DNA from: Streptomyces sp. NBC_01142
GTDB lineage: Bacteria; Actinomycetota; Actinomycetes; Streptomycetales; Streptomycetaceae
Direction of reading: 5' to 3'
Assembly: GCF_026341125.1 (NCBI RefSeq)
Contig: NZ_JAPEOR010000001.1
Location: 2,790,001-2,854,000, forward strand
DNA: 64,000 nt
Each line of letters begins with the position of its first letter. Position 1 is the first letter of the stretch. Position numbers and translations under genes: made by a program. Under the pieces are notes generated by a model that saw only the letters and a program-made list of their open reading frames with translations, was not told the DNA's origin and ran no database searches. Shown piece after piece: positions 4,255 to 49,640 of this stretch.

Positions 4255-4998
4255 ATGGGGGCCTTCGGTGTGGCCGCGAGCAACTTCATGGGAAACCCGG
4301 TGGAAGGGCTTGCCGCGGCGACCGTTCGGCGCGGTTTCACGGTGTTGGAGGGAGCAAACCTTCGCCCGTTGCTGTCGGCAGACGAACTCGACGCATTCAG
4401 CCGGTTCTGGAACGACCTTCCGCTCGATGAAGCGCTGATCGACGGCGGAAAGTACCGGTACCGACGATATGGGCGGCTGCGAGTGGAGATCGGTGGCGAC
4501 GGCCCCGAATTCGAGGTGTTGCCGCACAAGACCTTCCGGCAGGACGGCATTCCGCTGTGGAAGGGCGCGGATCGCGAATTCGCGCCCATCGAGGAGAAGG
4601 CGCTGCTGCACCCCGGTATGACCGCGCTGGTCGGTTTCGACACCGAACTGGCCACCACGATCTCCGGACAGCGAAGCTGGGAGCTGGGGATCCACCAGAT
4701 CCGTATGGTCGCCCGCCGCGACGAGGTCGGTCTGCCGACGCCCGAGGGCCGGCACCGGGACGGTCATTGCTATATCGGAATGCATCTGATCCGCCGCGAG
4801 GACTGCATCGGCGGAGAATCCACGGTGTACCCCGAGAACGGTGAGGCGGCGCGTCTGACGCTGACCGATCCGCTGGACTCGATCTTTGTTGACGACCGGC
4901 TGGTCACCCACGAGGTGTCGCCGACGCAGGCGGTGAGCGAAACCGGCATCCGCGACATGCTGCTGGTCGACATCAATCCCCTCGGCGGCGGCGAATGA
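4255..4998 (+). CDS. Fe(II)/2-oxoglutarate dioxygenase, L-isoleucine dioxygenase (IDO)-like
   Basis: A 247-residue protein resembling the 2OG-Fe_Oxy_2 family (L-isoleucine 4-dioxygenase and relatives), which hydroxylate free aliphatic amino acids. The metal triad is visible: H167-x-D169 in HRDGH, and H219 in the THEVS segment. R233 is the likely 2-oxoglutarate anchor. The ATG at 4255 follows GGAGGG at 4244-4249. It is the first gene of a tightly coupled operon, and its stop overlaps the next start (ATGA). A role in hydroxylating a building block of the peptide, or the AmCP-derived amino acid, is inferred. The substrate cannot be read from the sequence. Confidence 0.82.
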   Translation: MGAFGVAASNFMGNPVEGLAAATVRRGFTVLEGANLRPLLSADELDAFSRFWNDLPLDEALIDGGKYRYRRYGRLRVEIGGDGPEFEVLPHKTFRQDGIPLWKGADREFAPIEEKALLHPGMTALVGFDTELATTISGQRSWELGIHQIRMVARRDEVGLPTPEGRHRDGHCYIGMHLIRREDCIGGESTVYPENGEAARLTLTDPLDSIFVDDRLVTHEVSPTQAVSETGIRDMLLVDINPLGGGE

Positions 4999-6170
4999 CC
5001 TGGCCGGCCCCCGGCGACGAGACCGAACTGTTGCGGGCCATGGTGGAGATCCCCTCCTTCTCCGGAGAGGAGGGGGAGCTGGCCGCCATGCTGGCCGAGC
5101 GCATGGCCGCAGCGGGTTTCGACACGCACGTCGACGCGGTCGGGAACGTGCACGGGGCGGTCGGCGATCCGGACGGCCCTGAAGTGATGCTGCTCGGGCA
5201 CATCGACACGGTGCGCGGATCGCTCCCCGTACGGCTGGACGGCGATGTTCTCTCCGGCCGGGGCTCGGTGGACGCGAAGGGCCCGCTGGCCACGATGATC
5301 TGCGCCGCCGCCAGACTCGCGGACAGCATCCCTGCGCGCCTCGTGGTGATCGGTGCCGCCGGCGAGGAAGCCACGTCCCACGGTGCCAGGCATCTGCTGC
5401 ATCTGCCGGCGCCCGACGCATTGATCATCGGTGAGCCCAGCGGGGTGCATTCCATCGGCATCGGTTACAAGGGCGTATTCCGCTTCCGGATGGACTTCAC
5501 CCAGCCCCCGGCCCACACCAGCTCCGACCAGGCGACCGCGGCCGAGGTCGCGTTCGAGTTCTGGAACGCGCTGACTGCCAGGCTGGCCGCGGACCACGCC
5601 GAGACCTCACCGCTGTTCGAGCGCGCGCTGCCGACGATCGTCGCCATGAGCGCGGATCTCGAACGGGCCGCCCTCGAGATCTCCTGCCGGATCCCCATCG
5701 GGTTCGACGTCGGAGCGTTCACGTCCTGGCTCAGTGACGGAGAAGGACGCCGGGTCACCGTGGTCGAGGAGGTGCCGGCCGTCCGCTCGGCCCGCACCGA
5801 CCCCGTGGTGCGGGCCATCAGCGCGGCCGTGTCCGCCCGCGGTGCGCGCGCCGTCCCGAAGCTGAAGCTCGGCACCTCGGACTGGAACGTGGTCGGACGG
5901 TACTGGCAGGTGCCGACCGCGGCGTACGGGCCGGGCAACTCCCGGCTTTGCCACAGTGTCGACGAACACATCGAGATACCCGAATACCTGGCCGCCATCG
6001 ATGTGTTGACCGATGCGTTGCCACGGCTCGTCGATTCGCTGCGCTCGATTCCGACACCCGGAGGCGCCGCGCGAGCGGGAAATGGAGCGTCAGATCGTGA
6101 CCGCAGAACGAAAGAAGCTGGCCGTACTCACCTCGAGAGTACGACTGGAGGAGCGGCTGCTCCTCGCTGA
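4995..6170 (+). CDS. LysK-like M20 peptidase releasing amino acid from carrier protein
   Basis: M20-family zinc carboxypeptidase most like LysK/ArgE-type [LysW]-amino acid hydrolases. These cut the isopeptide-like bond between the C-terminal Glu of the carrier protein and the attached amino acid. Metal-binding segments are visible: GHIDTV near residue 75, the SGRGSVDAKGP stretch near 95, and GAAGEEATS near 120 with the catalytic Glu. The core ends around residue 345 and is followed by a polar, low-complexity tail of about 45 residues. This tail overlaps the start of the next gene by about 74 bases, which is unusual; the rest of the operon overlaps by 4. In this cluster it should release the finished diamino acid from the LysW homologue at 14635. 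Confidence 0.85.
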   Translation: MTWPAPGDETELLRAMVEIPSFSGEEGELAAMLAERMAAAGFDTHVDAVGNVHGAVGDPDGPEVMLLGHIDTVRGSLPVRLDGDVLSGRGSVDAKGPLATMICAAARLADSIPARLVVIGAAGEEATSHGARHLLHLPAPDALIIGEPSGVHSIGIGYKGVFRFRMDFTQPPAHTSSDQATAAEVAFEFWNALTARLAADHAETSPLFERALPTIVAMSADLERAALEISCRIPIGFDVGAFTSWLSDGEGRRVTVVEEVPAVRSARTDPVVRAISAAVSARGARAVPKLKLGTSDWNVVGRYWQVPTAAYGPGNSRLCHSVDEHIEIPEYLAAIDVLTDALPRLVDSLRSIPTPGGAARAGNGASDRDRRTKEAGRTHLESTTGGAAAPR

Positions 6171-6978
6171 GCTGCGCAGGCGCAACATCGAGTTCGACCA
6201 GATCGACGCCCGGAAGTTCACCGTCCGGCTGAACAACCAGGAGCGTCTGCACCTGCCTTACGCGGGAGCGCTCAGCCGGGAGATCTCCCACACCAGGAAC
6301 TACTACGCCTGCCGACTGCTGGAGCATGCCGGAGTGCCGGTCGTGAACAGCTCCAGCGTCATCGGCCTGTGCGGCGACAAGCTGCTCACCACACTCGCTC
6401 TGCGGGACGGCGGCCTGCCCACGATCCGCGCTCTGGTCGGCCTGACTCCGGATCCGGTGCTGGAGGAGCTGGACGACTTCGGCTACCCGGCGGTGGTCAA
6501 GCCGCTCACGGGTTCCTGGGGCCGGCTGGCCGCGCGGATGCACGACCACGAGCAGGCCGAGGCACTGCTGGAGCACCGGGCCGCGCTGTCCGGACCGCAG
6601 CACCAGATCACGTACATCCAGGAGTATGTGGACAAGCCCGACCGCGACATCAAGGCCTATGTGTTCGGTGGCGAGGTGATCGGCGCGATCTACAAGGTGC
6701 GGCACGACCACTGGCGCACCAATACCGCGCGTGGCGGCCAGGCCGAGAACTGCCCGCTCACCGACGAACTGGTCAAGCTGCTGCAGGACACGGCGAACGC
6801 GATCGGCGAAGGTGTCCTGGGTGTGGACGTCATCGAGCACCGCGACGGCCGCCTCTTCGTCAACGAGGTCAACCACACGCCGGAGTTCCACGGTGCGATC
6901 GAGGTGCTCGGAGTGGATCTGGTCGGCGCGTACGTCGACTACGTGATCAGCCAGTTGAAGCTGTGGGGTGACCGGTGA
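6097..6978 (+). CDS. LysX-type ATP-grasp ligase (carrier protein-glutamate/aminoadipate ligase)
   Basis: ATP-grasp enzyme of the LysX/RimK family. It joins the amino group of an acidic amino acid to the C-terminal glutamate of a LysW-type carrier protein. The ATP-grasp features are clear: FGYPAVVKPLTGSWGRL in the middle and the metal-binding NEVNHTPEFHG near the C-terminus, the typical LysX signature. I chose GTG 6097 (product starts VTAERKK) because GGAG lies at 6084-6087; ATG 6082 is an alternative. The length, about 293 residues, fits the family. It belongs with the LysW, LysY and LysZ genes at 14635-16673. By analogy with vazabitide-type pathways the substrate is likely L-glutamate rather than aminoadipate, but this is inference. 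Confidence 0.88.
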   Translation: MTAERKKLAVLTSRVRLEERLLLAELRRRNIEFDQIDARKFTVRLNNQERLHLPYAGALSREISHTRNYYACRLLEHAGVPVVNSSSVIGLCGDKLLTTLALRDGGLPTIRALVGLTPDPVLEELDDFGYPAVVKPLTGSWGRLAARMHDHEQAEALLEHRAALSGPQHQITYIQEYVDKPDRDIKAYVFGGEVIGAIYKVRHDHWRTNTARGGQAENCPLTDELVKLLQDTANAIGEGVLGVDVIEHRDGRLFVNEVNHTPEFHGAIEVLGVDLVGAYVDYVISQLKLWGDR

Positions 6979-7310
6979 CCCGGTCCGTCGCGCTGGAGCT
7001 GACAGAACCGCTGCCCTGCCGCGGGCAGCTCGTCGACCTGCCCCACGGCCGGTACGACTGGCTGCGGATCGACCTGAGTGCCCCCGCGCAGCCGGAATCC
7101 GCCGAGACGGCCTGGCTGTACTACGAGCACGGCGTCGATCCCGAACGCTTCGTCGTGTCGGCGGCCGAGCCCGACCGGGTCTGGCTGCCGGTGCCGCGCC
7201 GGGACGTGCTGCTGGCTGTCCGGCTGCCCGACCGTCCAGAACTGGTCCTGAGCGCGATGGCCATGGTCGTTCCGCAGCGGGCGGCAGAAGAAGTGGGGGC
7301 GGGGACATGA
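6975..7310 (+). CDS. Small beta-rich protein, related to 11291-11878 product; candidate azabicycle-forming subunit
   Basis: An 111-residue protein that I cannot assign to a named family. It starts with GTG in a 4-bp overlap with the ligase gene and ends in a 4-bp overlap with the aminotransferase gene, so it is translated with them. Its segment CRGQLVDLPHGRYDW followed by WLYYEHG aligns with CRGQLVALPGGHYEW and ELHYADG in the 195-residue protein at 11291-11878. It looks like a shortened version of that beta-sandwich. In vazabitide and azinomycin biosynthesis a two-subunit enzyme (Vzb10/11, AziU3/U2) closes the aziridine. A pair of unusual small proteins among the DADH genes is therefore a reasonable candidate. 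This assignment is inference. Confidence 0.55.
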   Translation: MTRSVALELTEPLPCRGQLVDLPHGRYDWLRIDLSAPAQPESAETAWLYYEHGVDPERFVVSAAEPDRVWLPVPRRDVLLAVRLPDRPELVLSAMAMVVPQRAAEEVGAGT

Positions 7311-8614
7311 GCGATGCCGTCAAACTGGCCATGTTCGGCGGGAGCCGTACGGTTGGCAAGCAGGACGTCAGCAAAGCGCTGGTCGGCTGGCCGGTGGTGA
7401 CAGACCAGGAACAGGATGCGCTGCGCGGCGTCCTCGACCGTGGCCTGTTCACCTCCAACGACGCGGGCCGGGGCGAAGTCAGCGCATTGCAGCAGGAGTG
7501 GGCGCAGTACGTCGGCACCCAGTACTGCGCCGCTGTGGCGAACGGAACGGCGGCGCTGGAACTGTCGTTGGCGGCCCTGGACATCGAGCCGGGGTCGGAA
7601 GTCCTGGTGCCCGCACTGACCTTCATCGGCAGCGCGGCGCCGATCGTGCAGCGGCAACTGGTGCCGGTGTTCGTCGACATCGACCCGGTCACCTACACGA
7701 TGGACCCGGTCGCGGCCGAGAAGGCCGTCACCGGGCGGACCAGGGCGCTCATCGCCGTACACCTGCACGGACTGCCCTGCGACATGGGCGCGCTGCGGGC
7801 GCTGGCCGACAGGCACGGCCTGTATGTGATCGAGGACGCGGCGCAGGCCCAGGGTGCCGAATACGGCGGACGGCGGGCCGGATCGCTCGGTGACATCAAC
7901 GCGGTCAGCCTCAACGCGGTGAAGAACCTGCCGACCTGCGGCGAGGGCGGGCTGGTGACCACCAACGACGAGAACCTGCATGAACGTGTGGTGCTGCGCC
8001 GCCAGTTCGGCGAGGATCTGCGCCCCGGCCGCGAACGCGACTACATCTCACGGGTGCTCGCGGGCAACGAGAAGATGAGCGCGGTGCAAGCCGCCTTCAC
8101 CCGCTGTCAACTGAGCCGCCTCGACAGCGACTCGGCCGCGCGCGACCGGGTGGTGCGCCGCTTCCTCGGCAGGCTGAGCGCCCTGCCGGGGGTGATCGCG
8201 CCGACCTGCCCCGACGACCGCACCCACGCCTGGCACATCCTGCGGCTGCGCTTCGATCCGGCCGCCGCGGGATTCCCCGAGCTGCCGGCCGGCCAGTTCC
8301 GGGCGATGCTGCAGCGAGCGCTGCGTGCGGAGGGCGTGCCGCTGCAGTCCTACCAGATCGTGCCGTTGCCCGGACAGCCGGCATTCCAGCACCTGGGTGT
8401 GCCGATCGCCGACTACCAGGTCAGCATGGCGGTGATCGACGAATCGGTCACCCTGCAGCGCTGGCACCTGAATCCGAACTGCGGCCCGGTGCTGGATCTC
8501 TGCGCGAGTGCCTTCGAGAAGGTGTGGGCACGGCTGGACGAGCTGGCGCCGCTGGCCGCCGCGATGAACCACCGACCGCCCTGGCACCAGGTGATGAGCG
8601 GAGCGGCACGATGA
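7307..8614 (+). CDS. DegT/DnrJ/EryC1-family PLP aminotransferase
   Basis: A 435-residue PLP-dependent aminotransferase of the DegT/DnrJ/EryC1/StrS family, which usually transaminates keto sugars and related polyhydroxy ketones. Visible family features are FTSNDAGRGEV near the N-terminus, the VANGTAALELSL cofactor phosphate loop, IEDAAQAQGAEY with the PLP-ring aspartate, and the Schiff-base lysine K206 in NAVKNLPTCGEGG. It lies between the small beta-rich protein and the split transketolase, overlapping both by 4 bp. In DADH-type pathways this enzyme aminates the ketone created by the transketolase step, producing the second amino group. Confidence 0.88.
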   Translation: MSDAVKLAMFGGSRTVGKQDVSKALVGWPVVTDQEQDALRGVLDRGLFTSNDAGRGEVSALQQEWAQYVGTQYCAAVANGTAALELSLAALDIEPGSEVLVPALTFIGSAAPIVQRQLVPVFVDIDPVTYTMDPVAAEKAVTGRTRALIAVHLHGLPCDMGALRALADRHGLYVIEDAAQAQGAEYGGRRAGSLGDINAVSLNAVKNLPTCGEGGLVTTNDENLHERVVLRRQFGEDLRPGRERDYISRVLAGNEKMSAVQAAFTRCQLSRLDSDSAARDRVVRRFLGRLSALPGVIAPTCPDDRTHAWHILRLRFDPAAAGFPELPAGQFRAMLQRALRAEGVPLQSYQIVPLPGQPAFQHLGVPIADYQVSMAVIDESVTLQRWHLNPNCGPVLDLCASAFEKVWARLDELAPLAAAMNHRPPWHQVMSGAAR

Positions 8615-9450
8615 CCGCCCCGACCCAACGATCAGACGTCGCATGCGCCGACCGTGCCTACCGGGTCAGGGAACGCATCCTTCAGATGGGCGCGACCGAG
8701 CACGGGGCGCACATCGGCGGCAGCCTGTCGTGTACGGACGTACTCGTACACCTCTACACGGAGGTGCTGCGGCTGCGGCCGGCCGAACCCGAATGGCCGG
8801 ACCGTGACCGGTTCGTGCTCAGCAAGGGGCACGCCGCGCCTGCTCTCTACGCCGTGCTGGCAGAAGTCGGCATCATCGATCCGGACGAGCTGGAGACCTA
8901 CACCCAGCAGGGCAGCAGGCTCGCGGGACACCCGTTGCGCCGGCTGCCGGGGGTGGAGTTCCCCACGGGGTCACTGGGCCATGGCCTGTCCCTGGGCGCC
9001 GGCGTCGCGGTGGCGATGCGCCGACTCGGGCGTGACAGCCGGGCCTTCGTTCTCCTCGGTGACGGCGAACTGCAGGAGGGTTCGGTCTGGGAGGCGGCGA
9101 TGATGGCCTCCCAGTACCGGCTGGACAACCTGGTCGCGGTGGTGGACCGCAACGGTCTGCAGATCACCGGCGATACCGAGGACTGCATCGCGCTGGAGCC
9201 GCTGGCCGAGCGGTGGCGCAGCTTCGGCTGGAACGCCGTCGAGGTGGACGGGCACGATCACGCCGCCCTGCGAGCGGTCTTCGACGCACTGCCCGGCACA
9301 TCGGGCCGTCCGACGGTAGTGATCGCCAAAACCGTCAAGGGGCGCGGTGTCGCCCTGTTCGAAGGCAAGAAGAAGAGCCATTCCGTTCAGCTCACGCCGC
9401 GGCTGTACCAGCGTGCGAAGGCAGGCCTCAGAGCAGGTAGGCAGTCATGA
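8611..9450 (+). CDS. Transketolase, N-terminal (TPP-binding) subunit
   Basis: A 279-residue protein corresponding to the N-terminal half of transketolase, which binds the diphosphate of thiamine pyrophosphate. Visible motifs are HIGGSLSCTDVLVHLY, LSKGHAAPALYA, the GSLGHGLSLGAG loop, and the TPP motif GDGELQEGSVWEAAMMASQ ending near VVDRNGLQ. The pyrimidine-binding half is encoded by the next gene (4-bp overlap), so the active enzyme is a heteromer. Split transketolases occur in secondary metabolism. Here the enzyme is expected to transfer a two-carbon ketol unit to the carrier-bound semialdehyde produced by the LysY-type reductase. Confidence 0.92.
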   Translation: MTAPTQRSDVACADRAYRVRERILQMGATEHGAHIGGSLSCTDVLVHLYTEVLRLRPAEPEWPDRDRFVLSKGHAAPALYAVLAEVGIIDPDELETYTQQGSRLAGHPLRRLPGVEFPTGSLGHGLSLGAGVAVAMRRLGRDSRAFVLLGDGELQEGSVWEAAMMASQYRLDNLVAVVDRNGLQITGDTEDCIALEPLAERWRSFGWNAVEVDGHDHAALRAVFDALPGTSGRPTVVIAKTVKGRGVALFEGKKKSHSVQLTPRLYQRAKAGLRAGRQS

Positions 9451-10436
9451 ACGAACTGATCACCGACACCCCGGCGGCTCAGCAGGACTGGGCGGAGCGC
9501 TACGCGGTGCCCACCAGGGAGATGTACCGCCGCACACTGGTCGAGATGGCGCGGCTGGATCCCCGGATCTTCTGTGTCGACTCGGACATGGGCGGGCTGG
9601 AGGACCGGTTCGGGGAGCTGCTTCCGGACCAGTACGTCAACGTGGGCATTGCCGAGGCGAACCTGATGGGCGTGTCCGCCGGGCTGGCCCACTCCGGGCT
9701 GCTGCCCTACGCCAACACCATCTCCAGCTTCGCCGCGAGCAGGGCATGCGAGCAGGTGAAGATCGATGTGGCCGGCAACAACCTGCCTGTCCGCATCGTG
9801 GTGACGCATGCGGGGGTGTCCGCCGGGCACTACGGGCCGACGCACCACGCCGTCGAGGACATCGCGATCATCAGGACGCTGCCCAACATGACGATCGTCG
9901 TGCCGTGCGACGCCGCGGAGACCGAGGCCGCTGTTCACGCGACGGCCGATCTGCCGGGCCCGTTGTTCCTGCGGCTCGGCCGGGCGACGACACCGATGGT
10001 CAACACCGAACCGTACGAATTCCGGCTCGGCGAAGCCCGCCTGCTGCGGGACGGCGATGACGTCACCGTCGTCGCCACAGGGCCGTATCCCGTGGTGATG
10101 GCCCTGGAGGCCGCGGAACTCCTGGCGCAGCAGGGGTATTCCACGCGGGTGCTGAACATGCACACGGTCAAACCGCTCGATGTGGCGGCGCTCGGGCGCG
10201 CGGCCCGTCAGACCAGAGGGCTGGTCACCGTGGAAGACCATGTGCGGGTCGGCGGGCTGGGAGCAGCCGTCTGTGAGGCCGTCGCGGAGGACCACCCGTG
10301 CCCGGTCCGCCGCATCGGAGTGCCGGACGGGTACCTCGACTTCGTCGCCGACGAGCGAAACCTGCTGGAGCACGCGGGGGTGGGCCCCGAGCGGATCGCG
10401 GCTGCTGCCCTTGAGATTGCCCGGTCGCCGGGGTGA
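9447..10436 (+). CDS. Transketolase, C-terminal (pyrimidine-binding) subunit
   Basis: A 329-residue partner of the preceding gene: the pyrimidine-binding plus C-terminal domains of a transketolase or DXS-like enzyme. Visible features are FCVDSDMGGLEDRFGE, the catalytic-glutamate segment YVNVGIAEANLMGVSAGLAHSG, the THAGVSAGHYGPTHHAVEDIAI loop in the middle, and a transketolase C-terminal domain from about residue 200. The start ATG at 9447 overlaps the stop of the N-subunit. It ends 5 bp before the 3' end of an opposing GNAT gene, closing the first rightward operon. Confidence 0.92.
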   Translation: MNELITDTPAAQQDWAERYAVPTREMYRRTLVEMARLDPRIFCVDSDMGGLEDRFGELLPDQYVNVGIAEANLMGVSAGLAHSGLLPYANTISSFAASRACEQVKIDVAGNNLPVRIVVTHAGVSAGHYGPTHHAVEDIAIIRTLPNMTIVVPCDAAETEAAVHATADLPGPLFLRLGRATTPMVNTEPYEFRLGEARLLRDGDDVTVVATGPYPVVMALEAAELLAQQGYSTRVLNMHTVKPLDVAALGRAARQTRGLVTVEDHVRVGGLGAAVCEAVAEDHPCPVRRIGVPDGYLDFVADERNLLEHAGVGPERIAAAALEIARSPG

Positions 10437-10441
10437 CCCGG

Positions 10442-11296
10442 TCAGCTCGGCCGTACGGGCCGCTGTCGTACGGGCTGCTGTCGTACCGCGGTACTCCGCC
10501 ACCACGCCAGCAGCGCGGGATGGAGCAGCCTCGGTCCGCAGAAAGCGGCAATCCCGGTCGCGGGCCGGCCGAAGAACAGTTCGTCCCGGCCCACCTGATC
10601 CGCCTCCTCGGCCAGCGCGTCCCGGACCCGGGCGAGTTCGGCCGGCCCGGCGGCGGGCCAGAAGTCGGCACCCAGTGGCGTCCGGTGGCAACCCGCGTCC
10701 GGCACCCCTTCGCCGGAGATCAACCGCAGACGGCAGACGGTTCCCGTGGGCACCGCCAGCCAGTCGAGCAGCAGACCGGGTCTGGCGGGGGGAGCGTCGT
10801 GCGGGACGGGGGCGGGGGCCTCGCGGAGATCTCGCTCCATCCGCACCTCGGACAGCGGCTTGTCGCCGGCCGGGAAGTGTCGCACGGTGCGGTACCCGAC
10901 ACGTGCGTAGAACGCCGGATTGCCCCGTTCCACAACGGCGTCCAGAACCACCCGGGACGCGCCGGCGGCCAGGGCGTCGGCCTCCAGCCGGCGCAGCAGG
11001 CGGCGGGCGGTCCCGGAGTGCCGGGACGACGGCGAGACGGCCAGTCGCCGGACCTCCCAGCTGTCCGGCGCGTTCCGGACGGCCCGGACGGTGCCCACGA
11101 TCTCGCCCGACACCTGGGCAACCCAGAGCAGTTGCCCGGCGGACAGGTCGTGGAACAGCTCGGCGGAATCCGCCAGGGCGCCGTCCGCGGTCGGCAGGCC
11201 GGGCAGGAGATCCCCTGATGAATAGGCCGCCCGGATGATTTCTGAAACCGTCTCGGCCATTTCTCGGGAAACGGAACTTATGAGGTTCGCGTGCAT
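10442..11296 (-). CDS. GNAT-family N-acetyltransferase with C-terminal extension
   Basis: A leftward gene of up to 284 residues. The N-terminal 150 residues form a GNAT acetyltransferase: acetyl-CoA-binding block VRRLAVSPSSRHSGTARRLLRRLE and C-terminal motif ERGNPAFYARVGYRTV. The remaining 130 residues, including two GRPATG/ADFWPA-type segments, match no domain I recognise. The start is uncertain. ATG 11296 overlaps the divergent gene at 11291, while ATG 11260 would leave a gap. It is the only leftward gene in this part of the cluster. Self-resistance by acetylating the product or a reactive amine intermediate is plausible but unproven; it could also be a tailoring enzyme. Confidence 0.75.
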   Translation of the reverse strand: MHANLISSVSREMAETVSEIIRAAYSSGDLLPGLPTADGALADSAELFHDLSAGQLLWVAQVSGEIVGTVRAVRNAPDSWEVRRLAVSPSSRHSGTARRLLRRLEADALAAGASRVVLDAVVERGNPAFYARVGYRTVRHFPAGDKPLSEVRMERDLREAPAPVPHDAPPARPGLLLDWLAVPTGTVCRLRLISGEGVPDAGCHRTPLGADFWPAAGPAELARVRDALAEEADQVGRDELFFGRPATGIAAFCGPRLLHPALLAWWRSTAVRQQPVRQRPVRPS

Positions 11297-11878
11297 CCAC
11301 AAATGATAAGCACTGTCATTGACATTTCTGAAGCCTGTAACAATCTCGGTATCGGAAAGTCGGGGGCCGGTGAGGATTACGGCTTCAACATCTGGCGCAA
11401 CACTTTCCCGGCCGAGGACCTGCCCGCGCCGGGATCCACCGTGGCGGTGGACGGCGTCGATTTCGAGTTCCCGCCGCGCGAGACCGGAAAGGGCGACAAC
11501 ATCCGCTGCCGCGGGCAGCTGGTCGCACTGCCCGGTGGCCACTACGAGTGGATCTATCTGCTGGGCGCGGCCGAGCGGCGGACCGAGGACGAGGTGGAAC
11601 TCCACTACGCCGACGGTGCAGCACGCACCGAGTGGCTGCGGATGTCGGACTTCTGGCCCGAGACCGACTCCTGGTTCGGCGAGCCGGAGGCGTTCCGCGC
11701 CACCGGGCTGCGCTACCCCCGGCACACCCAGGCCGGGCACCGGCCGGTGATCTGGCAACAGCGCATCCCGGTGACCGTACCGGGGGCCCTGACCGCGCTG
11801 CGGCTGCCCGACAACCCGGCCATGCACGTGTTCGCACTCACCGCAGTGACGGATCCGGGGGTTCGTCATGCGCGTTGA
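11291..11878 (+). CDS. Stand-alone beta-sandwich (carbohydrate-binding-like) protein; candidate azabicycle-forming subunit
   Basis: A 195-residue protein. Its pattern (SEACNNLGIG..., VDGVDFEFPP, GDNIRCRGQLVALPGG, LHYADG, LPDNPAMHVFALT) resembles the galactose-binding-like beta-sandwich found at the ends of many actinobacterial glycoside hydrolases. Here it occurs alone, with no catalytic glycosidase. It shares a clear stretch with the 111-residue protein at 6975-7310. GTG 11291 has GAGG at 11282-11285; ATG 11303 is the alternative start. The 3' end overlaps the BtrH-like gene by 11 bp. With its smaller relative it may form the heteromer that closes the aziridine by sulfate elimination (Vzb10/11, AziU3/U2 type). 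That function is inferred from context. Confidence 0.6.
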   Translation: MHPQMISTVIDISEACNNLGIGKSGAGEDYGFNIWRNTFPAEDLPAPGSTVAVDGVDFEFPPRETGKGDNIRCRGQLVALPGGHYEWIYLLGAAERRTEDEVELHYADGAARTEWLRMSDFWPETDSWFGEPEAFRATGLRYPRHTQAGHRPVIWQQRIPVTVPGALTALRLPDNPAMHVFALTAVTDPGVRHAR

Positions 11879-12916
11879 ACTGAAGCCCGTCGAGTACTGG
11901 CGGCACGAACTCGGGCACTGCCTGCACACCACCGCAGGGGTGCTGCTGGCTCAGCGGGGCATGGACCCGGTGGCTGTACTCGGAGCCGCCTGGGGTTTTC
12001 ACTACCCCGGTGATCTGCGGCGGGAGGAGTACTACCTGCCGGGATACGCCGACTCGCTGTTCAGCGGTCTGGCGCCCCACCACGGGATCCGGTCGCGATG
12101 GCACCGGCCGGCCGACGCCGATCAGGGCTGGCTGCAGGTCCGGGCCGAGCTGGCCGCCGGGAACACGGTCGCGGTCGCCGCGGACAACTTCCATCTGCCC
12201 TTCCGGCCCGCGTACCGGGACGTGCACACCAACCACCTCCTCGTCGTCTACGGATTCGACGACGAAGCGGCAGAGGTGCTGGTGGCGGACCCGGTGCCGC
12301 CGGCCTTCCAGGGCGCCATCCCGCTGGACGAGTTCACCGCGGCCCGCGATTCCGGCAACCCGGTCACGCACGATCGCGACATGTTCTTCACCGCAAACCC
12401 GATCGGCAACCGGTGGCTGGAGCTCGAGGTGACCTCGCCGCAGCCCCGGTTCGAGCCGGATTTCGTCCGGCACGTACTCACCGAGAACCTGCGCGCGTTC
12501 ACCGATCCGGCAGATCCGGCCACATCGGGACTGCCCGGGCTGCGCACCTTCCTGGCCGGTTCGTGGGACCGGATCGAGACCATGCCCGAGGTGGTGGACG
12601 AGGTGTTCATCGTGGCAGGGCCCGTGCTGGCGGTGACCGGCCTGCACGCGGCATTTCTGGAACTGGCCGGACGGCGCTTCGCCGATGCCCGTCTGCTCGA
12701 ACTGTCCAGGCGGGTGGACGCGGTGGCGCACCACTGGTCGGCGCTGCGGATCGCGGTGGCCACGGCGCGCGCAGAGCGTGCCGCCGCCGTACCCGCGCTG
12801 CGCCGGCGGACCACCCGGCTGCTCTCGGAGTACGAACGCGTCCTCGAGGCGATGACCGTCCACCTGTCGGGGGTTTCCCCTACTGTCCGCGTGCCTGAGA
12901 TTTCGCGAGCCTCTAG
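11868..12916 (+). CDS. BtrH N-terminal domain-like protein, 3' end interrupted by IS1380-family element
   Basis: About 349 native residues. The first 190 resemble the BtrH_N domain of butirosin BtrH, a cysteine acyltransferase that moves an acyl group from a carrier protein to an amine. The segment ELGHCLHTTAGVLL contains the likely nucleophilic Cys, and NHLLVVYGFDDEAAEVLVADP a likely catalytic His/Asp. The IS joins at codon 350. Joining the flanks without the IS gives only Arg-Cys-stop (TGA at 14603-14605), so the gene lost essentially nothing. The same frame now runs through antisense IS sequence to a stop at 13995-13997, which would add about 359 foreign residues. A role in transferring the azabicyclic acid, or in release from the carrier protein, is inferred. 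Confidence 0.7.
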
Positions 12917-12933
12917 CCTCGCTGTTTCGGTTG
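12913..12933. repeat. Left target duplication (CTAG) and left inverted repeat of the IS
   Basis: CTAG at 12913-12916 is the target-site copy. Bases 12917-12933 are the left terminal repeat, matching the right end at 15 of 17 positions. Confidence 0.85.
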
Positions 12934-14594
12934 GGGGTGATGAGGCGTCGCTGATCGTCAGCTGTCGGGTGGGCGAGTGTTTTCTCTGCTCGGGCATGGC
13001 GGAGTCCCGGCGCGGGGGTCGGGTTCTCCGAGGTCTTTCGGGTCGTGGGCGGGCTGGGGGTTACCGGTCAGCCGGCGGGTCGGGGCAGTGCGGCGAGGCG
13101 ATGGAATGCCGTGGCGAGTTCGTCTCTCCAGGGCCAGGTCGCCGATATCCGCAAGCGCAGACGCCGACCGCCGCGGGTGAGGCGTGCGGCGACGTGCAGC
13201 AGCCGGTAGCGGAGCTTCTTCGGCTCGGCAGACGCGAGTTCACCGTCCAGCAGCAGGACGCGCATCCAGGCCAGCAGGTCGATCGCCGCAAGGCTGAGTT
13301 CGAGCCAGGCGGCATTGACGTTGAAGTCGCGGGAGGGGAAGCGGCCGAAGCCGGTGGTCTTGCCGCACCGGATGTGGTCCTCGACGCGTGCATGGCCGCG
13401 GTGACGGACCTCCAGGAACTGGGCGGATCCACCACCGGGGGAAGGGGTGTCGGTGAGGAACACCTGATGCCGCAGGCCCTCGTCCTGGTCGAACAGGGAC
13501 AACTGGGCTCCGGGGTGCGGCCGCTCCCGGCGCACGATGATGCGGGTGCCGGCCGGGTAGCCGTCCAGGTCGACCATGCCGGTCAGCTCGGCGACCTCGG
13601 CCCCGGCACGCAGTGTCCCGTCCTGGTCCAGGGCGGGATGCCAGAGACGGCTGGGCATGGCCCGGATAGCGCGTCGGACCGGCTCGGTGATGGCGTATCC
13701 GACCGAGAAGAAGGTACGGATTCCTCGTTTGCGCAGGTCGCGGACGTGGGCGAGGAAGGCTTTTGCGGATCCGGCGCCGTCGGTGCGGATGAGGAGGTCG
13801 GTGCCGTGCCGGTGGGCTTCGGGGATCTGCCCGAGCGCCTGGTCGAGCACCGTGATGTGGTCGCTCGCGGTGTTGGCGCCGGCATTCCCGGGCCGCAGCC
13901 GGCCGGACAGTGCCTCGCCGGTGTTGGCGAGGAAGCACAGCAGCGGGTGGAACCCGAAGCCGCCCTTGTAGGTGGGTGCGGCCTGCGCTTTCTCTGAGTG
14001 GCAGGCGATCAGCGTGGCATCGAGATCCAGGACCAGACCGGGCAGCAAGCGCCCCGCGGTGCGGACTGCGGGTATGCCCTCACCGTGTTCGGCGGCCTGC
14101 AGCCAGGCGACTTCCCGGGCCTGGGCGCGAGCAGAAGCCAGCGAGGCGAGGGCGGTCTCGTCGACGTCGGCGAGCAGCCGCCAGGCCGTCGGTGTCGAGG
14201 CGATCGGGCCGAACACCCCTACCTGGTCCCGTAGCACGGCCAGGTCCGCGATGGCCTCACCGCCGTCGGCGAGCATCACCGCCAGGTCGGTGGCGATCCG
14301 GCCGGGGTCATGTCCCGTCCCGCGCGGTCGAAGCGGCCTGAGCGCGGCGGAGTACGCGGCGGTCAACCCCGTGGCATCGGCGAGATCCGCCAGCAGCCGT
14401 GCCCCGGCATGACCGACCACCCCCGAACCATCGGCGCTGACATGGATCTTGGGACGCAACCCGATACCCTGCACGTAGAAAGTGCCCTCCGCCTGGACCG
14501 ACAGAACCCCTCAGCAAGGTTCATCGTCCCAGGTCAGGAAGGCACTTTCGCGTTTCCGCCGCAACAGCCGCCGTATTCAAGCGAAACGGCGAGG
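12917..14594 (-). mobile_element. IS1380-family insertion sequence, complete (1678 bp)
   Basis: The ends are imperfect inverted repeats: CCTCGCTGTTTCGGTTG at the left and, read inward, CCTCGCCGTTTCGCTTG at the right (15 of 17 match). They are flanked by a direct duplication of CTAG at 12913-12916 and 14595-14598. CC-starting repeats, a 4-bp target duplication and one long transposase gene fit the IS1380 family. The transposase frame is intact, and near-perfect ends plus an intact duplication point to a recent insertion. It separates the left biosynthetic operon from the LysW-LysY-LysZ-NRPS operon. Confidence 0.9.
13068..14474 (-). CDS. IS1380 family transposase
   Basis: A 468-residue DDE transposase of the IS1380/IS4-like group. 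It reads leftward from a GTG at 14474 inside the insertion element. Visible family features include LVLDLDATLIACHSEKAQAA followed by TYKGGFGFHPLLCFLANTGE around residues 165-205, TDGAGSAKAFL near 255 and RVEDHIRCGKTTGFGRFPSR near the C-terminus. No frameshift or stop interrupts it, so the element may still be active. Rightward frames inside this gene are shadows. Confidence 0.93.
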   Translation of the reverse strand: MQGIGLRPKIHVSADGSGVVGHAGARLLADLADATGLTAAYSAALRPLRPRGTGHDPGRIATDLAVMLADGGEAIADLAVLRDQVGVFGPIASTPTAWRLLADVDETALASLASARAQAREVAWLQAAEHGEGIPAVRTAGRLLPGLVLDLDATLIACHSEKAQAAPTYKGGFGFHPLLCFLANTGEALSGRLRPGNAGANTASDHITVLDQALGQIPEAHRHGTDLLIRTDGAGSAKAFLAHVRDLRKRGIRTFFSVGYAITEPVRRAIRAMPSRLWHPALDQDGTLRAGAEVAELTGMVDLDGYPAGTRIIVRRERPHPGAQLSLFDQDEGLRHQVFLTDTPSPGGGSAQFLEVRHRGHARVEDHIRCGKTTGFGRFPSRDFNVNAAWLELSLAAIDLLAWMRVLLLDGELASAEPKKLRYRLLHVAARLTRGGRRLRLRISATWPWRDELATAFHRLAALPRPAG

Positions 14595-14598
14595 CTAG
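14578..14598. repeat. Right inverted repeat of the IS and right target duplication (CTAG)
   Basis: Bases 14578-14594 are the right terminal repeat. CTAG at 14595-14598 repeats the bases at 12913-12916. Removing the IS and one CTAG restores a continuous frame ending at TGA 14603-14605, 29 bases before the LysW start. Confidence 0.85.
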
Positions 14599-14634
14599 GT
14601 GTTGAACGAATGACCTTCAGGCGGAGGTAGAAAA

Positions 14635-14802
14635 TTGATCGTGGCCTGTCCCGAATGTGTCGCGAACGTAGAATTCGCGGAAAAGCCCGAGCTCAACGAG
14701 ATCATCGAATGCGGTGACTGTGCTGGTGAACTCGAGGTCATTTCGGTCGACCCGCTGGTAGTCGCAGTGGCGCCGGAGGTCGAGGAGGACTGGGGCGAGT
14801 GA
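14635..14802 (+). CDS. LysW-like amino-group carrier protein (AmCP)
   Basis: A 55-residue carrier protein. Two zinc-binding pairs are visible, C5-P-E-C8 and C26-G-D-C29. The middle is acidic, and the C-terminus EDWGE is the hallmark of LysW, whose terminal Glu gamma-carboxylate receives the amino group of the substrate. The start is TTG 14635 with GGAGG at 14623-14627, and the stop overlaps the next gene (GTGA). The protein masks the amino group and serves as a handle for LysX, LysZ, LysY and LysK homologues, all encoded in this window. LysW proteins outside lysine/arginine synthesis mark secondary metabolism such as vazabitide and azinomycin. The IS lies only 40 bp upstream and may affect its expression. 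Confidence 0.93.
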   Translation: MIVACPECVANVEFAEKPELNEIIECGDCAGELEVISVDPLVVAVAPEVEEDWGE

Positions 14803-15821
14803 CCAGTGTGGGGATTGTGGGCGGGGCCGGTTATATCGGAGGCGAGCTGCTCCGGATCATCTCCGGGCACCCGGAGCTCGAGATCACCGCAGTCACTTCC
14901 TCCCGGCTGGCCGGTCGACGGGTGGACGGCAATCATCCGAACCTGCGCGGCAGGGTGGACCTCGCCTACATCTCCCCCGACCGGCTGCCCGAATGCGACG
15001 TACTGTTCCTGACGAGCTCATCGGTGGCCGACGTGGAGCAGCGAAGCTCACTCGTGGCCCGAGCCAAGATCGTCTACGACCTCAGCCCGGATCTGCGCCT
15101 CGCTGATCCCGATCGCTATCGCGAGCACTACGGCGAGCATCTTGCGCCGGAGTTGCTCGGCAAGGCGGTCATCGGCCTGCCGGAGCTGTACCGCGAGTCA
15201 TTGCGCACCGCCGACACGGTCAGCGTGCCCGGATGCATGGCCACGGCCGCCATCCTGGCCCTGCGCCCGCTTGCCGGCGCAGGACTGCTCGAGTCGCGCG
15301 TCACCGTGGACGGCCGGGTCGGCTCCAGCGGCTCGGGCGCCTCCGCGGGAGAGCTGAATCTGCATGCCGAGCGCAGTGGCGTGCTCCGGGTGTTCGCCCC
15401 GCTCAACCATCGGCACCAGGCCGAGATCTCCCAGTCGACCGGCCTGGATGTGCGGATGACGGCCACCGGGGTGGACGCCGTGCGCGGGGTGCAGGTGCTG
15501 TGCCGGGCAACGGTGAGCCGTGAGGTCACCGAGGCGGAAGTACGCGGCGCCTATCGCGCCAGCTACGCCGAGGAACCGTTCGTCCGGGTGATCACCCAGA
15601 AGCGCGGCAACTACCGGCTTCCGGAGCCGAAGATCCTTCTCGGCTCCAACTACTGCGACGTGGGGTTCGCACTGGACCCGGCCAGTGGTCAGATGCTGCT
15701 CATCGGCGCACTCGACAACCTGGTCAAGGGCGGTGCCGGCAACGCCGTGCAGAGCTTGAACATCCGGATGGGCTGGGACGAGTCGCTCGGACTCGAATTC
15801 CCCGGTCTGCATCCGGCGTAA
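14799..15821 (+). CDS. LysY/ArgC-type carrier protein-bound acyl phosphate reductase
   Basis: A 340-residue NADPH-dependent semialdehyde dehydrogenase of the ArgC/LysY family. It reduces the carrier-bound gamma- or delta-acyl phosphate to the aldehyde. The N-terminal Rossmann motif GIVGGAGYIGGELLRI, the catalytic C146 in VSVPGCMATAA and the HRHQAEI segment with the catalytic His are visible. GTG 14799 overlaps the carrier protein's stop. Placement directly after a LysW gene and before a kinase argues for carrier-bound rather than N-acetylated substrate. The semialdehyde is the expected acceptor for the split transketolase. Confidence 0.9.
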   Translation: MTSVGIVGGAGYIGGELLRIISGHPELEITAVTSSRLAGRRVDGNHPNLRGRVDLAYISPDRLPECDVLFLTSSSVADVEQRSSLVARAKIVYDLSPDLRLADPDRYREHYGEHLAPELLGKAVIGLPELYRESLRTADTVSVPGCMATAAILALRPLAGAGLLESRVTVDGRVGSSGSGASAGELNLHAERSGVLRVFAPLNHRHQAEISQSTGLDVRMTATGVDAVRGVQVLCRATVSREVTEAEVRGAYRASYAEEPFVRVITQKRGNYRLPEPKILLGSNYCDVGFALDPASGQMLLIGALDNLVKGGAGNAVQSLNIRMGWDESLGLEFPGLHPA

Positions 15822-15830
15822 GGGAGCCTG

Positions 15831-16673
15831 ATGACTGACGAGATCACGGTGGTCAAATGCGGCGGCGGGCTCTCGCTCGACCATGAGGCCATCTGCCGCG
15901 ACCTGGCGGCGCTGCCGGCCGGACGGGCGGTTCTGGTGCACGGAGGTGCCGCCGAACTCGACCTGCTGGCCGGCCGGCTCGGCGTACCGCAGCGTCGGCT
16001 GACCACGCCGAGCGGCTCGTCGAGCCGGTACACCGACCCCGCCACCCTTGAGGTGCTGCTGATGGCGCTGGCGGGCAAGGTCAAGCCTGCCCTGGTGGCC
16101 TCGCTGGCCAGGCACGGCGCCCGTCCGGTGGGACTGACGGGCATGGACGCCCGCTTGGTGACGGCCAAGCGCACCGCCACGCACAGAGCGGTGCTGTCCG
16201 GCCGCAAGGTCGTGATCCGTGACGACCACAGCGGAAGGATCCGTACGGTGGACCCTTCCCTCCTGGTCACCCTGCTGGACGCGGGATGCCTGCCCGCCGT
16301 CTCGCCGCCCGCCATCGGGGAGGACGGCGAGGCGGTCAACGTCGATGCGGACCGAGCCGCGGCGGCGATAGCGGGTGCGCTGGCGCGGAGCCGGCCGGTA
16401 CGGCTGGTCCTGCTGACCGCCGCACCGGGGGTGCTTCGCGATCCGGCCGACGAGAGTTCGCTGATGCCGGAGATCACCGTGTCCGAGGAGCCGTCCGGTG
16501 ATGCGGCGATCATGGGCGGGATGACCGCGAAGCTGCAGGCCGCCCATGACGCACTGGTCGCCGGGGTGGGCACCGTGGTGATCGCCGACGGCCGCGTCGC
16601 CCACCCGGTGCGCGACGCGCTCGCCGGCGCCGGAACCACGGTCAAGAGAGTCGCAACCGTCGGGAGCCTGTGA
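15831..16673 (+). CDS. LysZ/ArgB-type carrier protein-bound glutamate/aminoadipate kinase
   Basis: A 280-residue amino acid kinase of the acetylglutamate kinase fold. It phosphorylates the side-chain carboxylate of the carrier-bound amino acid, using ATP. Visible features are VVKCGGGLSLD near the N-terminus, VLVHGGAAELDLLAGRLG, PSGSSSRYTDPATLEVLLMALAG with the substrate-binding Arg, and GGMTAKLQAAHDAL near residue 225. The ATG at 15831 has GGGAG at 15822-15826. It ends in a 1-bp overlap with the NRPS start, so carrier-protein chemistry and peptide assembly are cotranscribed. Confidence 0.9.
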   Translation: MTDEITVVKCGGGLSLDHEAICRDLAALPAGRAVLVHGGAAELDLLAGRLGVPQRRLTTPSGSSSRYTDPATLEVLLMALAGKVKPALVASLARHGARPVGLTGMDARLVTAKRTATHRAVLSGRKVVIRDDHSGRIRTVDPSLLVTLLDAGCLPAVSPPAIGEDGEAVNVDADRAAAAIAGALARSRPVRLVLLTAAPGVLRDPADESSLMPEITVSEEPSGDAAIMGGMTAKLQAAHDALVAGVGTVVIADGRVAHPVRDALAGAGTTVKRVATVGSL

Positions 16674-19600
16674 TGTCGAATCCATCGAATACCGGCGGGA
16701 AGAGCCTGGCCGAGACGCGCAGGAGTCTGCTCGCGCTGAGGGAACGTCAACGCGCAGGAGTGCGCGGCACGGGCGAGCAGGTGGTCCCGGTGAGCCGCGA
16801 CCGGGCACTGCCGCTCTCGTACACCCAGCAACGGCTGTGGTTCCTCGATCAGCTGGCGCCGGGCACGTCGGTCTACAACGCCCCGGTCATCCTGTCGCTC
16901 CGTGCCGATCTCGATGAGCGGGCCCTGGGCAGGGCGCTGAACGCGTTGACGGACCGGCACGAGATCCTGCGCACCCGGTATCCGCTGCGCGACGGTGTGC
17001 CCTACCAGGACATGGCCCAGCCCGGGAACGCGGTACCGCTCCCGGTGACGGATCTGACCGGGGCGGACGAGCAAGAGGTCCGTGATCTCGTCTTCGGGCT
17101 GGCCCAGGCGCCGTTCGATCTCGAGAACGGTCCGGTCCTGCGCGCGCATCTGGTCAGAGTCGGGGCCCGTGAGCACGTGCTCGTCCTGGCCCTGCACCAC
17201 ATCGCCAGCGACGGCTGGTCGATGCCCATCGTGGTGGGCGAACTGTTCCAGCTCTACCGGGCGGAACTCACCGGCGAACCGGCAGGGCTGCCCGAACTCA
17301 CGGTGCAGTACGCCGACTATGCCGTCTGGCAACGCGGAAGGATGACCGGGGCGGTGCTGGACGACCATCTGGCTTACTGGAAGCGGCAGTTGGCGGATCT
17401 GCCCACACTGGACCTGCCGACGGACCGGGCCCGCCCGGCCGTGCCCTCGCAGGCGGGCGCGGCCACGGACTGCCTGCTGCCCCTGGACCTGCGCGCGAAC
17501 CTCAACCAGCTCGCCAGGGCCGAGCGGGTCACCCTGCTCACCGTGGTCCTGTCCGCTTTCATGGTGATGCTCGACCGCTACACCGGCCAGGACGACATCG
17601 TCGTCGGGTCGGTGTTCTCCGGGCGTGAGCGTCCCGAGATCGAGCCGCTGATCGGTTTCTTCGCCAACACGGTGGTGCTGCGCTGCTCCACGGCAGGGGA
17701 CCCCACGTTCCGGGAACTGCTGGCGCGAGCCAACGAAACGGTGCTCGGAGCCCACTTCCACCAGGAGCTGCCCTTCGGCCGACTGGTCGACGAGCTCCGC
17801 CCCGAGCGTGACCCGAGCCGTAATCCGCTGTTCCAGACGTCCTTCACTCTCCAGCACGCCGGCGTCGAATCGGCACAGATCGCCGGCGTCGACGTCGAGG
17901 CGTACCCCCTGGAGGGGGACACCGCGCGGTTCGACCTTGCCGTCCAGCTCACGGAAATCCCGGAAGGCATCCGGCTGTGGGCGGAGTACTCCACCGACCT
18001 GTTCGACGCCGACCGGATCGAGCGCCTCTTCGGTCACTATGCACAGATCCTGGATGCAGTGGTGGCCGATCCGGACCTCCGCCTGAGCCGGCTGCCGATG
18101 CTCACCGAGCCGGAACGCGACCGGCTGACCGAAGTCAGCGGCAGGACCGCGCCCGTGCCGGAGGGATGCCTGCACGAACTGTTCGAGTCGGTGGCGGACA
18201 CATCGCCGGACGCTGTGGCGACATCCTTCGACGGTCACCGGCTCACCTACCGCGAGCTGGACGACCGGGCCAACCGGCTGGCGTGGGCGCTGCAAGCCGT
18301 CGGCGTCGGCCCGGAGACCGTGGTCGGTGTGCTGCTCGACCGCGGCCCGGAACTGCCCACCGCGTTCTTCGGCGTCCAGAAGGCGGGCGGTGCCTATCTG
18401 CCCCTCGACCCGGACCACCCGGCCGGCCGCTGGGAGACCGGACTGACCGAGGCGCGCTGCGAGATCGTGGTGACCACCAGCGACCGGGCAGGCGAGCTGC
18501 CGCCCGGAGTCACCGCGGTCTGCGTGGACGACCCCGCGCTCGGTCAGCACTCCACAAAGCGGCCGCGTTCCGGCGTCGGACCGGGCAACCTCGCCTACAT
18601 GATCTTCACGTCGGGTTCCACCGGCAAGCCCAAAGGGGTCCAGGTGGAACACCGGAGCATCGTCAACTTCACCCGGGCGAGCATCGAGATGTTCCGGCTC
18701 GGCGTGGGGGACAGGGTTCTGCAGTTCGCGAACCCCTCGTACGACGTCAGCCTGTTCGACTTCTTCAGCGCCTTGTGCTCCGGCGCGCAGCTGGTACAGG
18801 CGTCCAAGGCGACCCTGCTGGACCCCGAACGTCTGGCCGGGCTGATGCGCGAGGAGGGGGTCACCGTCACCGACCTGCCCCCGGCCGTGCTGGGACTGCT
18901 GGACGCCGATACGTTCCCGGCGCTGAGAGCTCTGTTCGTGGGGCTCGAGGCGTTCCCCGGCGAGCTGGTGAACCGGTGGAACATTCCGGGGCGGGAGTTC
19001 CACAACGGCTACGGTCCGACCGAGGCCACCGTGGCCTGCATCGACTATCTCTGCCCCGACGGCACGTACGCCGCCATGCCCCCCATCGGCACGCCGATGG
19101 CGAACTACCAGGCGCATGTGCTGGACCGGTACGGCAACCCGGTGCCGGTCGGCGTGCCCGGTGAGCTGTTCATCGGCGGTGTGGGAGTGGCCCGCGGATA
19201 CGCGCATCAACCCGGGCTGACCGCGGAGCGCTTCGTGCCCGATCCGTTCGGCGAGCCCGGTGCGCGGCTGTACCGGACAGGGGACCTGGTGCGCCGTCAG
19301 GCCGACGGCAACCTGTACTTCCTCGGCCGGGTGGACAACCAGATCAAGATTCGCGGCCTGCGCGTGGAACCGGGTGAGATCGAGCACGCGGTGGAGACGC
19401 ACTCCGCGGTCGCCGAGGCCGTGGTCGTCGCGTGGGGCTCCGGTGCCGAGGCAAGCCTGGTGTGCTATCTGTCCACGGCGCCCGGCCGTGAGGCGGAGCC
19501 CGAAGATCTGCGGCGCTACCTGGTCGACCGGTTGCCGGCCCATCTGGTGCCTGCCATGTTCGTGGTACTGCCCGAACTGCCGAGGGCGAGCAGCGGCAAG

Positions 19601-23539: not shown

Positions 23540-23573
23540 CCACCGGGCATTCATTCCCCATGCAGGAGCCATG

Positions 23574-25184
<1,611 letters not shown>

Positions 25185-49482: not shown

Positions 49483-49640
49483 GCTGCACTCTAACGTTGC
49501 CCCACTGCCCGGACGACGGTGAACTCCCGTACTCCGAACGCTGGATGGGCGTTCCGCATCCCCTCCGCAGGGCGGCCCGCCCCTCGCTCTGCGCAACCCG
49601 CACACCCGTCAACCCCCACGCTCGAAAGGCAGGACCACCG

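Follow-up and report, generated by a model that had tools for sequence, protein, structure and literature searches.

A probable aziridine lipopeptide gene cluster in Streptomyces sp. NBC_01142 and its relatives

The stretch of DNA analysed in the present work, referred to as the window, comprises 64,000 nucleotides (positions 2,790,001 to 2,854,000) of contig NZ_JAPEOR010000001.1 in the 10.1-Mb genome of Streptomyces sp. NBC_01142. It contains a nonribosomal peptide synthetase (NRPS) gene cluster of about 51 kb which, judging from its gene content, probably assembles an amino acid with an aziridine ring system (1-azabicyclo[3.1.0]hexane) on an amino-group carrier protein (AmCP) and incorporates it into a peptide that bears a fatty acyl group. 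This cluster and its relatives probably specify a family of aziridine lipopeptides; the pathway is of a known kind, and the coupling of the azabicycle to a lipopeptide, together with the family itself, appears to be new. The evidence is evenly balanced on a fuller reading, in which an undescribed class of aziridine lipopeptides would carry azinomycin-type azabicycles, built on LysW, on an acyl-peptide, and in which a 2-oxoglutarate (2OG) oxygenase of family PF10014, here called OG2, and a paired complex of acyl-CoA-dehydrogenase fold would act on the carrier-bound aziridine amino acid, closing the bicycle and forming its exocyclic double bond; the class would be spread across Streptomyces, Goodfellowiella, Saccharopolyspora, Winogradskya, Nocardia, Nonomuraea, Nocardiopsis and Amycolatopsis. 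No description of an azabicycle lipopeptide or of this cluster was found in literature that was covered mostly as titles and the beginnings of abstracts, with few subscription journals, which is weak evidence of absence.

The carrier-protein pathway and the putative aziridine genes

Genes were mapped from open reading frames (ORFs), codon-position G+C content, and Pfam and NCBIfam scans (Table 1). All of the gene types that an earlier note on this DNA had named (LysX, LysW, LysY, LysZ, LysK, a split transketolase and a DegT-family aminotransferase) are indeed found between positions 4255 and 16673. The LysW-type protein matches PDB LysW 3wwl over its full length (E 3.5e-13) and ends in the glutamate of the motif EEDWGE; LysX and LysZ score over their equivalog cut-offs, LysK scores over that of the broader model TIGR01902 (262.9 bits, cut-off 163.1), and LysY scores over the cut-off of ArgC, which is its top match. 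The transketolase and the aminotransferase accompany the AmCP genes both here and in relatives.

The fact that ArgC is the best-scoring model for LysY is what might be expected if the genes formed a primary lysine or arginine locus that merely adjoins an unrelated NRPS cluster. This explanation is extremely improbable and was rejected, because the only other LysY/ArgC match in the genome (37% identity) is a separate gene on a different contig, and because the set co-occurs with AziU2 and AziU3 homologues, the transketolase and a sulfotransferase. Strong AziU3 homologues (E <= 1e-48) occur in 28 of 392 genomes sampled from the genus, the window's own included, the next-best genome reaching E 5.6e-10, and LysX is present at E <= 1e-50 in all 28; in 26 it lies on the same contig as AziU3 within 22 kb, and in the other two, which are fragmented assemblies, the two genes are on separate contigs. 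When the window's own gene is set aside, five of the six LysX matches of at least 59% identity lie no more than 7 kb from AziU3. These associations support the earlier assignment of the genes to a secondary-metabolic pathway leading to 2,6-diamino-5,7-dihydroxyheptanoate (DADH). A scan of named genomes with the AziU3 alignment confirmed 82 loci, 80 of which were kept and fetched, and much of the gene set recurs beside the AziU3 homologue in most of them, so it is not a chance grouping.

Several components that the earlier note did not name extend this picture: homologues of AziU2 and AziU3, the sulfotransferase, a GNAT acetyltransferase and, within the interval given above, a complete insertion sequence (IS). 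The AziU2 homologue has no match in Pfam or NCBIfam, and in the PDB it matches Azi28 (8gs1_A, E 3.4e-42) and AziU2 (7wuw_A, E 4e-42); the AziU3 homologue matches Azi29 (8gs1_B, E 2.8e-64) and AziU3 (7wuw_C, E 6e-64), and its closest homologue is a 351-amino-acid protein of Streptomyces sp. 21So2-11 with 82% identity. AziU3/U2 is described, in the available part of PMC12559475, as functionally an aziridine synthase that works through displacement of sulfate, and the part of PMC9570651 that was available gives the route as DADH, then sulfation, then the aziridine. Because homologues of both synthase subunits and a sulfotransferase are present in the cluster, the pathway very likely goes past DADH to the aziridine.

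A tree of AziU3 alone (82 rows) splits deeply. The window's sequence falls in a clade of 31 rows with support 100/100, the azinomycin AziU3 from the PDB groups with four loci, among them that of Streptomyces sp. NRRL S-340, and the remaining 46 loci do not form a well-supported clade (90/38). Counts of neighbouring genes are given for loci with full flanks, which are all four of the azinomycin branch, 38 of the remaining group (8 left out) and 23 of the window's clade (7 left out). A sulfotransferase match was found in all 18 of the relatives' genomes searched, and it lies near other cluster genes in 15 wide neighbourhoods, some of which were chosen by its own coordinates. Within the flanks of AziU3-centred loci it occurs in 4/4 of the azinomycin branch, 34/38 of the remaining group and 2/23 of the window's clade, where its distance from AziU3 is greater. 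Of the 80 fetched loci, 26 have a homologue of the GNAT, and every one of these belongs to the window's clade, which accounts for 30 of the 80; an unrelated gene in the gap at 10.4-11.3 kb, between the transketolase and AziU2, was thus ruled out, the gap gene being this recurrent GNAT. A weak BtrH-type match (E 2.9e-6) at 2859526-2860026, about 5.5 kb past the end of the window, is probably an unrelated BtrH_N protein.

AmCP products need not carry an aziridine, as is seen in s56-p1, which carries a hydrazone. Sixteen of the 44 same-genus LysX matches at E <= 1e-50 have no strong AziU3 homologue beside them (for example those in genomes G265, G353, G028 and G187), the AziU3-less LysX homologues showing 45-59% identity, so that there are other AmCP systems in the genus, and the present cluster could by analogy make DADH and end in a product without an aziridine. 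We consider this very unlikely given that AziU2, AziU3 and the sulfotransferase are all present and recur together with the core genes.

The putative acyl-starting assembly line and its relatives

The earlier note had also described a fatty acyl starter NRPS, a module lacking an adenylation (A) domain and two distinct 2OG oxygenases, and each of these was recovered. The starter protein N3 begins with a FAAL-type domain followed by thiolation (T) and condensation (C) domains; the A-less protein has the form C-T and is encoded near a free-standing A protein, which is one of five A domains in the cluster; and the oxygenases are OG2 and a VioC/GntD-like protein. All five C domains in the window keep the HHxxxD motif. 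A-domain signatures were read for nine of 13 sequences at motif positions taken from GrsA rather than by a predictor, and the N1 signature DVFD..GVA is kept in eight of the nine sequence sets (in one of them as DVFD..GIA), the ninth not covering N1. In the second A domain of N2 (window position 38185) the code is DIVQLGCVW, which we take to be Gly-like, whereas the domain at the same position in the otherwise nearly collinear cluster of S. apocyni has DLTTVGEVG, which we take to be Asn-like; a domain swap is possible.

Among PDB entries, proteins named as FAALs match the starter domain (for example FadD23, E 2.1e-85). The top two matches are nevertheless named polyketide synthase and saframycin synthetase, the substrate of a FAAL-like domain is not predictable here, and the genes are distributed over both strands and might belong to neighbouring clusters, all of which leaves room for the view that, although the azabicycle is formed, the substrate of the starter is not a fatty acid, or a separate compound comes from the FAAL-NRPS line, the product in either case being no azabicycle lipopeptide. 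We regard this view as unlikely, since the named FAALs follow at E 2.1e-85 and below, and since a FAAL homologue (37-64% identity) accompanies the azabicycle core in ten of the 13 wide neighbourhoods that belong to the window's clade (15 were read in all), VioC- and SagB-like genes being found in few of them. The three clade neighbourhoods without a FAAL are those of S. olivoreticuli (60 kb), Amycolatopsis coloradensis (60 kb) and S. niveus (20 kb). The A. coloradensis piece misses its AziU3, and the AziU3 locus of that strain, fetched separately (L017), has a 39% FAAL match; the S. niveus piece ends before the FAAL position. The FAAL piece of Saccharopolyspora indica lies on one contig and its AziU3 locus on another, and their linkage is presumed. 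Outside the clade, the two wide neighbourhoods give a best FAAL match of 26% or no match, and the core occurs without a FAAL in an azinomycin-like, a vazabitide-like and a Herbidospora locus.

The cluster is not unique to the window. In the 73.5 kb read from S. apocyni TRM 66233, each of the 31 window genes tested, from the LuxR-type regulator to the OsmC-like protein, has a homologue (51-83% identity), and the order is nearly the same; the LysZ match there is in two pieces, and the pair formed by the methionine-gamma-lyase-like enzyme (82% identical) and the OsmC-like protein lies at the opposite end of the cluster. Parts of a similar cluster are present on two contigs of S. niveus NRRL 2466. 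The 80-kb S. flavotricini locus keeps AziU2/U3, LysW, LysY, LysZ, NRPS genes, dehydrogenases, GNAT and FAAL, and has no match to LysX, LysK, DegT, transketolase or OG2, so that half of the pathway is either missing or elsewhere.

Proposed biosynthesis and comparison with known systems

From the gene content, homology, conservation and co-occurrence that were observed, we infer the chemical steps, the order of assembly and the roles of OG2, the GNAT, the second M20 hydrolase, the dehydrogenase pair and the VioC- and SagB-like proteins. LysX would join glutamate to LysW, LysZ and LysY would activate the side chain and reduce it to the semialdehyde, the split transketolase would add two carbons, the DegT enzyme would then transaminate, and LysK would release DADH. 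The sulfotransferase would O-sulfate DADH, and AziU2/AziU3 would close the aziridine through elimination of the sulfate; the GNAT would probably attach an N-acyl group and the second M20 hydrolase would probably take it off again. The aziridine amino acid would be loaded by N1; OG2, for which hydroxylation of the azabicycle chain is proposed, would add a ring oxygen; and the dehydrogenase-fold pair, possibly a single hetero-oligomer, would desaturate the unit while it is bound to the carrier. The ring nitrogen could then close onto C3, and an azabicyclohexylidene-glycine of the azinomycin type would result. The lipopeptide would begin with the FAAL, and the free A protein would charge the C-T protein.

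In azinomycin the azabicycle has an exocyclic double bond and an additional oxygen on the ring. Weakly conserved counterparts of OG2 and of the two dehydrogenase-fold proteins are also found in the azinomycin-like loci, which suggests that an azinomycin-type azabicycle is made here. All three occur in 4/4 loci of the azinomycin branch; the counts among the 38 loci of the remaining group are 2 for OG2, 25 for the first dehydrogenase and 5 for the second, and among the 23 loci of the window's clade they are 15 for OG2 and 14 for the dehydrogenase pair. The PDB relatives of OG2 include L-isoleucine-4-hydroxylase 6lnh (E 1.1e-9), closer ones being named only as 2OG-Fe dioxygenases, and hydroxylation at C4 would fit this distant relationship. 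How the dehydroamino acid of azinomycin is formed was still an unanswered question according to the accessible part of a 2023 review (PMC10880069).

The azinomycin cluster was compared by way of Streptomyces sp. NRRL S-340. The U3 protein of this strain shares 94% identity with the PDB chain, and its locus agrees in gene content with the azinomycin cluster as set out in the available part of PMC9570651. The 80 kb read from S-340 share with the window LysW/X/Y/Z/K, the split transketolase, DegT, AziU2/U3, the sulfotransferase and the first dehydrogenase-fold protein. Found only in S-340 are a KS-AT-DH-KR polyketide synthase (PKS), a P450, a C-A-T-reductase NRPS, an A-T protein and an AlkZ-like glycosylase, whereas the window alone has the FAAL (no match above 26% in S-340), VioC-like, SagB-like, M28, GNAT and second M20 genes. 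The two U3 proteins are 44% identical over 86% of the window's protein and lie on different deep branches. The azinomycin naphthoate is the product of an iterative type I PKS; no ketosynthase turned up in a Pfam scan of 39 window ORFs, in contrast to S-340, where one is present.

The stand-in for the vazabitide A cluster (vzb, BGC0001818) was an S. olivoreticuli locus (60 kb), a choice that rests on a score of 76 for vazabitide A given to a region of another S. olivoreticuli strain in the available part of PMC12472026. It resembles the window in the AmCP set, AziU2/U3, the sulfotransferase, the GNAT, the second M20 hydrolase, both dehydrogenase-fold proteins and an N1-like NRPS (50%), and differs in having no match to OG2, FAAL, VioC, M28 or SagB; its U3 is 50% identical to that of the window and lies on another branch of the same clade. 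Ficellomycin, which also has a DADH-type azabicycle, is a short peptide without an acyl chain. The suggestion of the earlier note that the combination is unlike described clusters thus holds against both the azinomycin-like locus and the vazabitide stand-in. A vazabitide cluster has been reported among Antarctic Streptomyces strains (PMC11205464, seen in part), and clusters like that of the window may have been filed under "vazabitide", because the closest AziU3 homologue belongs to strain 21So2-11 of that report. According to the part of PMC12690601 available, transfer of a vazabitide-like cluster whose NRPS genes were altered into a different host led to a product that had not been expected, and caution is therefore appropriate for the chemistry proposed above.

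A number of observations weigh against the azinomycin-type lipopeptide reading. The link to azinomycin-type chemistry is thin: the OG2 match in S-340 covers 55% of the protein at 36% identity, the match to the second dehydrogenase is partial (32%, residues 226-349) and falls short of E 1e-20, and the first dehydrogenase also occurs in 25/38 loci of the remaining group. The top NCBIfam match of LysK, to [LysW]-lysine hydrolase (NF003367), is at 327 bits, below the cut-off of 363. No AlkZ-like match lies within the window, as against one in the azinomycin-like locus, and a survey, PMC9040887, places such genes in five ficellomycin/vazabitide-like clusters in the part available; elsewhere in the genome there are three near-full-length matches (C1:2157807, C1:841793 and C2:2160540) and one partial match (C3). 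S. olivoreticuli, in the window's clade, has the core without FAAL or OG2, so a FAAL is not a trait of the whole AziU3 clade. Finally, production in the window's isolate appears doubtful, because, with the IS in place, the AziU3 frame continues into the element and AziU3 is separated from lysW.

The insertion element, the extent of the cluster and its meaning

The IS, which we take to be IS1380-like, interrupts the AziU3 homologue within its final codons and lies between that gene and lysW, and its inverted ends have arms of 21 nt that include the CTAG on both sides. The genome holds three full-length copies at 99-100%, the window's included, and three more at 82%; because two further copies are full-length at 99%, the element probably moved recently. 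The AziU3 frame runs for about 349 codons before the IS and then stays open for about 360 codons into it, to 13997, and the ends of the AziU3 and LysW matches are about 1.7 kb apart, as against 75-118 nt in six of the ten clade wide neighbourhoods that show both. These features, with the matching ends and near-identical copies elsewhere, make it a serious possibility, somewhat short of evens, that the IS has stopped or crippled the pathway in this isolate. Set against this, the roughly 349 codons before the IS compare with 351 amino acids in the closest homologue, the tail of AziU3 is variable and poorly conserved among homologues, and gaps of 231 nt, 616 nt, about 11 kb and about 35 kb in the other four neighbourhoods indicate that close linkage is not needed everywhere. 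In S. apocyni no IS separates U3 from LysW.

The cluster is suggested to extend from about 1.2 to 52.1 kb of the window, the boundary near 52.1 kb being placed there because the three window genes tested beyond it have no match over 60 bits in S. apocyni.

Table 1. Predicted genes and features of the cluster, in window coordinates (assignments follow from the matches in the last column).
Feature	Position	Strand	Evidence or remark
LuxR-type (AAA/TPR/GerE) regulator, probable cluster regulator	1234-4017	+	Pfam GerE, AAA_16; same place in S. apocyni, 62% identity
OG2, PF10014 2OG-Fe(II) oxygenase	4255-4998	+	PF10014 176 bits
LysK-type M20 hydrolase ([LysW]-amino acid release)	4995-6170	+	NF003367, TIGR01902
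LysX-type ATP-grasp ligase (start inferred)	~6082-6978	+	TIGR02144 292 bits, cut-off 275.6; PDB LysX
DegT/DnrJ/EryC1 aminotransferase (start inferred)	~7307-8614	+	PF01041 292 bits
Transketolase, thiamine-diphosphate-binding half (start inferred)	~8611-9450	+	PF00456, NF004559
Transketolase, pyrimidine-binding and C-terminal half	9447-10436	+	PF02779, PF02780
GNAT acetyltransferase	10442-11260	-	PF00583 47 bits
AziU2 homologue (putative aziridine synthase subunit), 195 aa	11291-11878	+	PDB 8gs1_A, 7wuw_A
AziU3 homologue (putative aziridine synthase subunit), BtrH_N protein	11868-12916	+	PDB 8gs1_B, 7wuw_C
IS element, 1,678 bp	12917-14594	.	Inverted ends, CTAG both sides, PF13701 transposase
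Transposase of IS element	13068-14474	-	PF13701, E 1.2e-59, profile 5-434 of 435
LysW-type AmCP, 55 aa (start inferred, TTG)	14635-14802	+	C-terminus EEDWGE; PDB 3wwl
LysY-type (ArgC-like) reductase	14799-15821	+	TIGR01850 310 bits, cut-off 233.6
LysZ-type kinase	15831-16673	+	NF010659 [LysW]-aminoadipate kinase 250 bits, cut-off 223
N1, NRPS C-A-T	16670-19948	+	Pfam; A signature DVFD..GVA
Acyl-CoA-dehydrogenase-fold protein 1	19945-21108	+	Pfam
Acyl-CoA-dehydrogenase-fold protein 2 (start inferred)	21105-22193	+	Pfam, NCBIfam
Second M20 hydrolase	22190-23539	+	PF01546
A-less NRPS C-T protein	23571-25184	+	PF00668 and PF00550 only
MFS exporter (start inferred)	25217-26492	-	PF07690/PF05977
VioC/GntD-like 2OG oxygenase	26948-28039	-	NF041363 392.8 bits, cut-off 345; PDB arginine beta-hydroxylases, CmnC
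Free-standing adenylation protein	28213-29772	+	Code DVFDNGTVT
Sulfotransferase	29779-30510	-	PF19798 66.8 bits
M28 peptidase-like protein	30520-32826	-	PF04389
N2, NRPS C-A-T-C-A-T-TE	32965-40194	+	Codes DGETSGVVL, DIVQLGCVW
N3, FAAL-T-C-A-T starter NRPS	40234-45531	+	A code DIWEIGADD
SagB-like nitroreductase-fold dehydrogenase	45864-46976	+	TIGR03605 119 bits, cut-off 78.4; TIGR04511 202.5, below 240
Alanine-racemase-fold pyridoxal phosphate (PLP) protein	46958-47857	+	PF01168
Second MFS exporter	47854-49077	+	PF05977
Methionine gamma-lyase / cystathionine gamma-synthase-like PLP enzyme	49497-50924	+	PF01053; named equivalogs all below cut-off
OsmC-like protein; last gene found common to S. 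apocyni	50949-52082	+	PF02566

Relatives of the cluster without the IS exist in named strains. OG2 and the dehydrogenase-fold pair provide concrete candidates for the dehydrogenation step of azinomycin biosynthesis. Few aziridine natural products are known, and these are reactive; if the proposed structure is correct, the combination of an azabicycle with a lipid tail would broaden the class and could hint at targets that are linked to the membrane, and not only to DNA.

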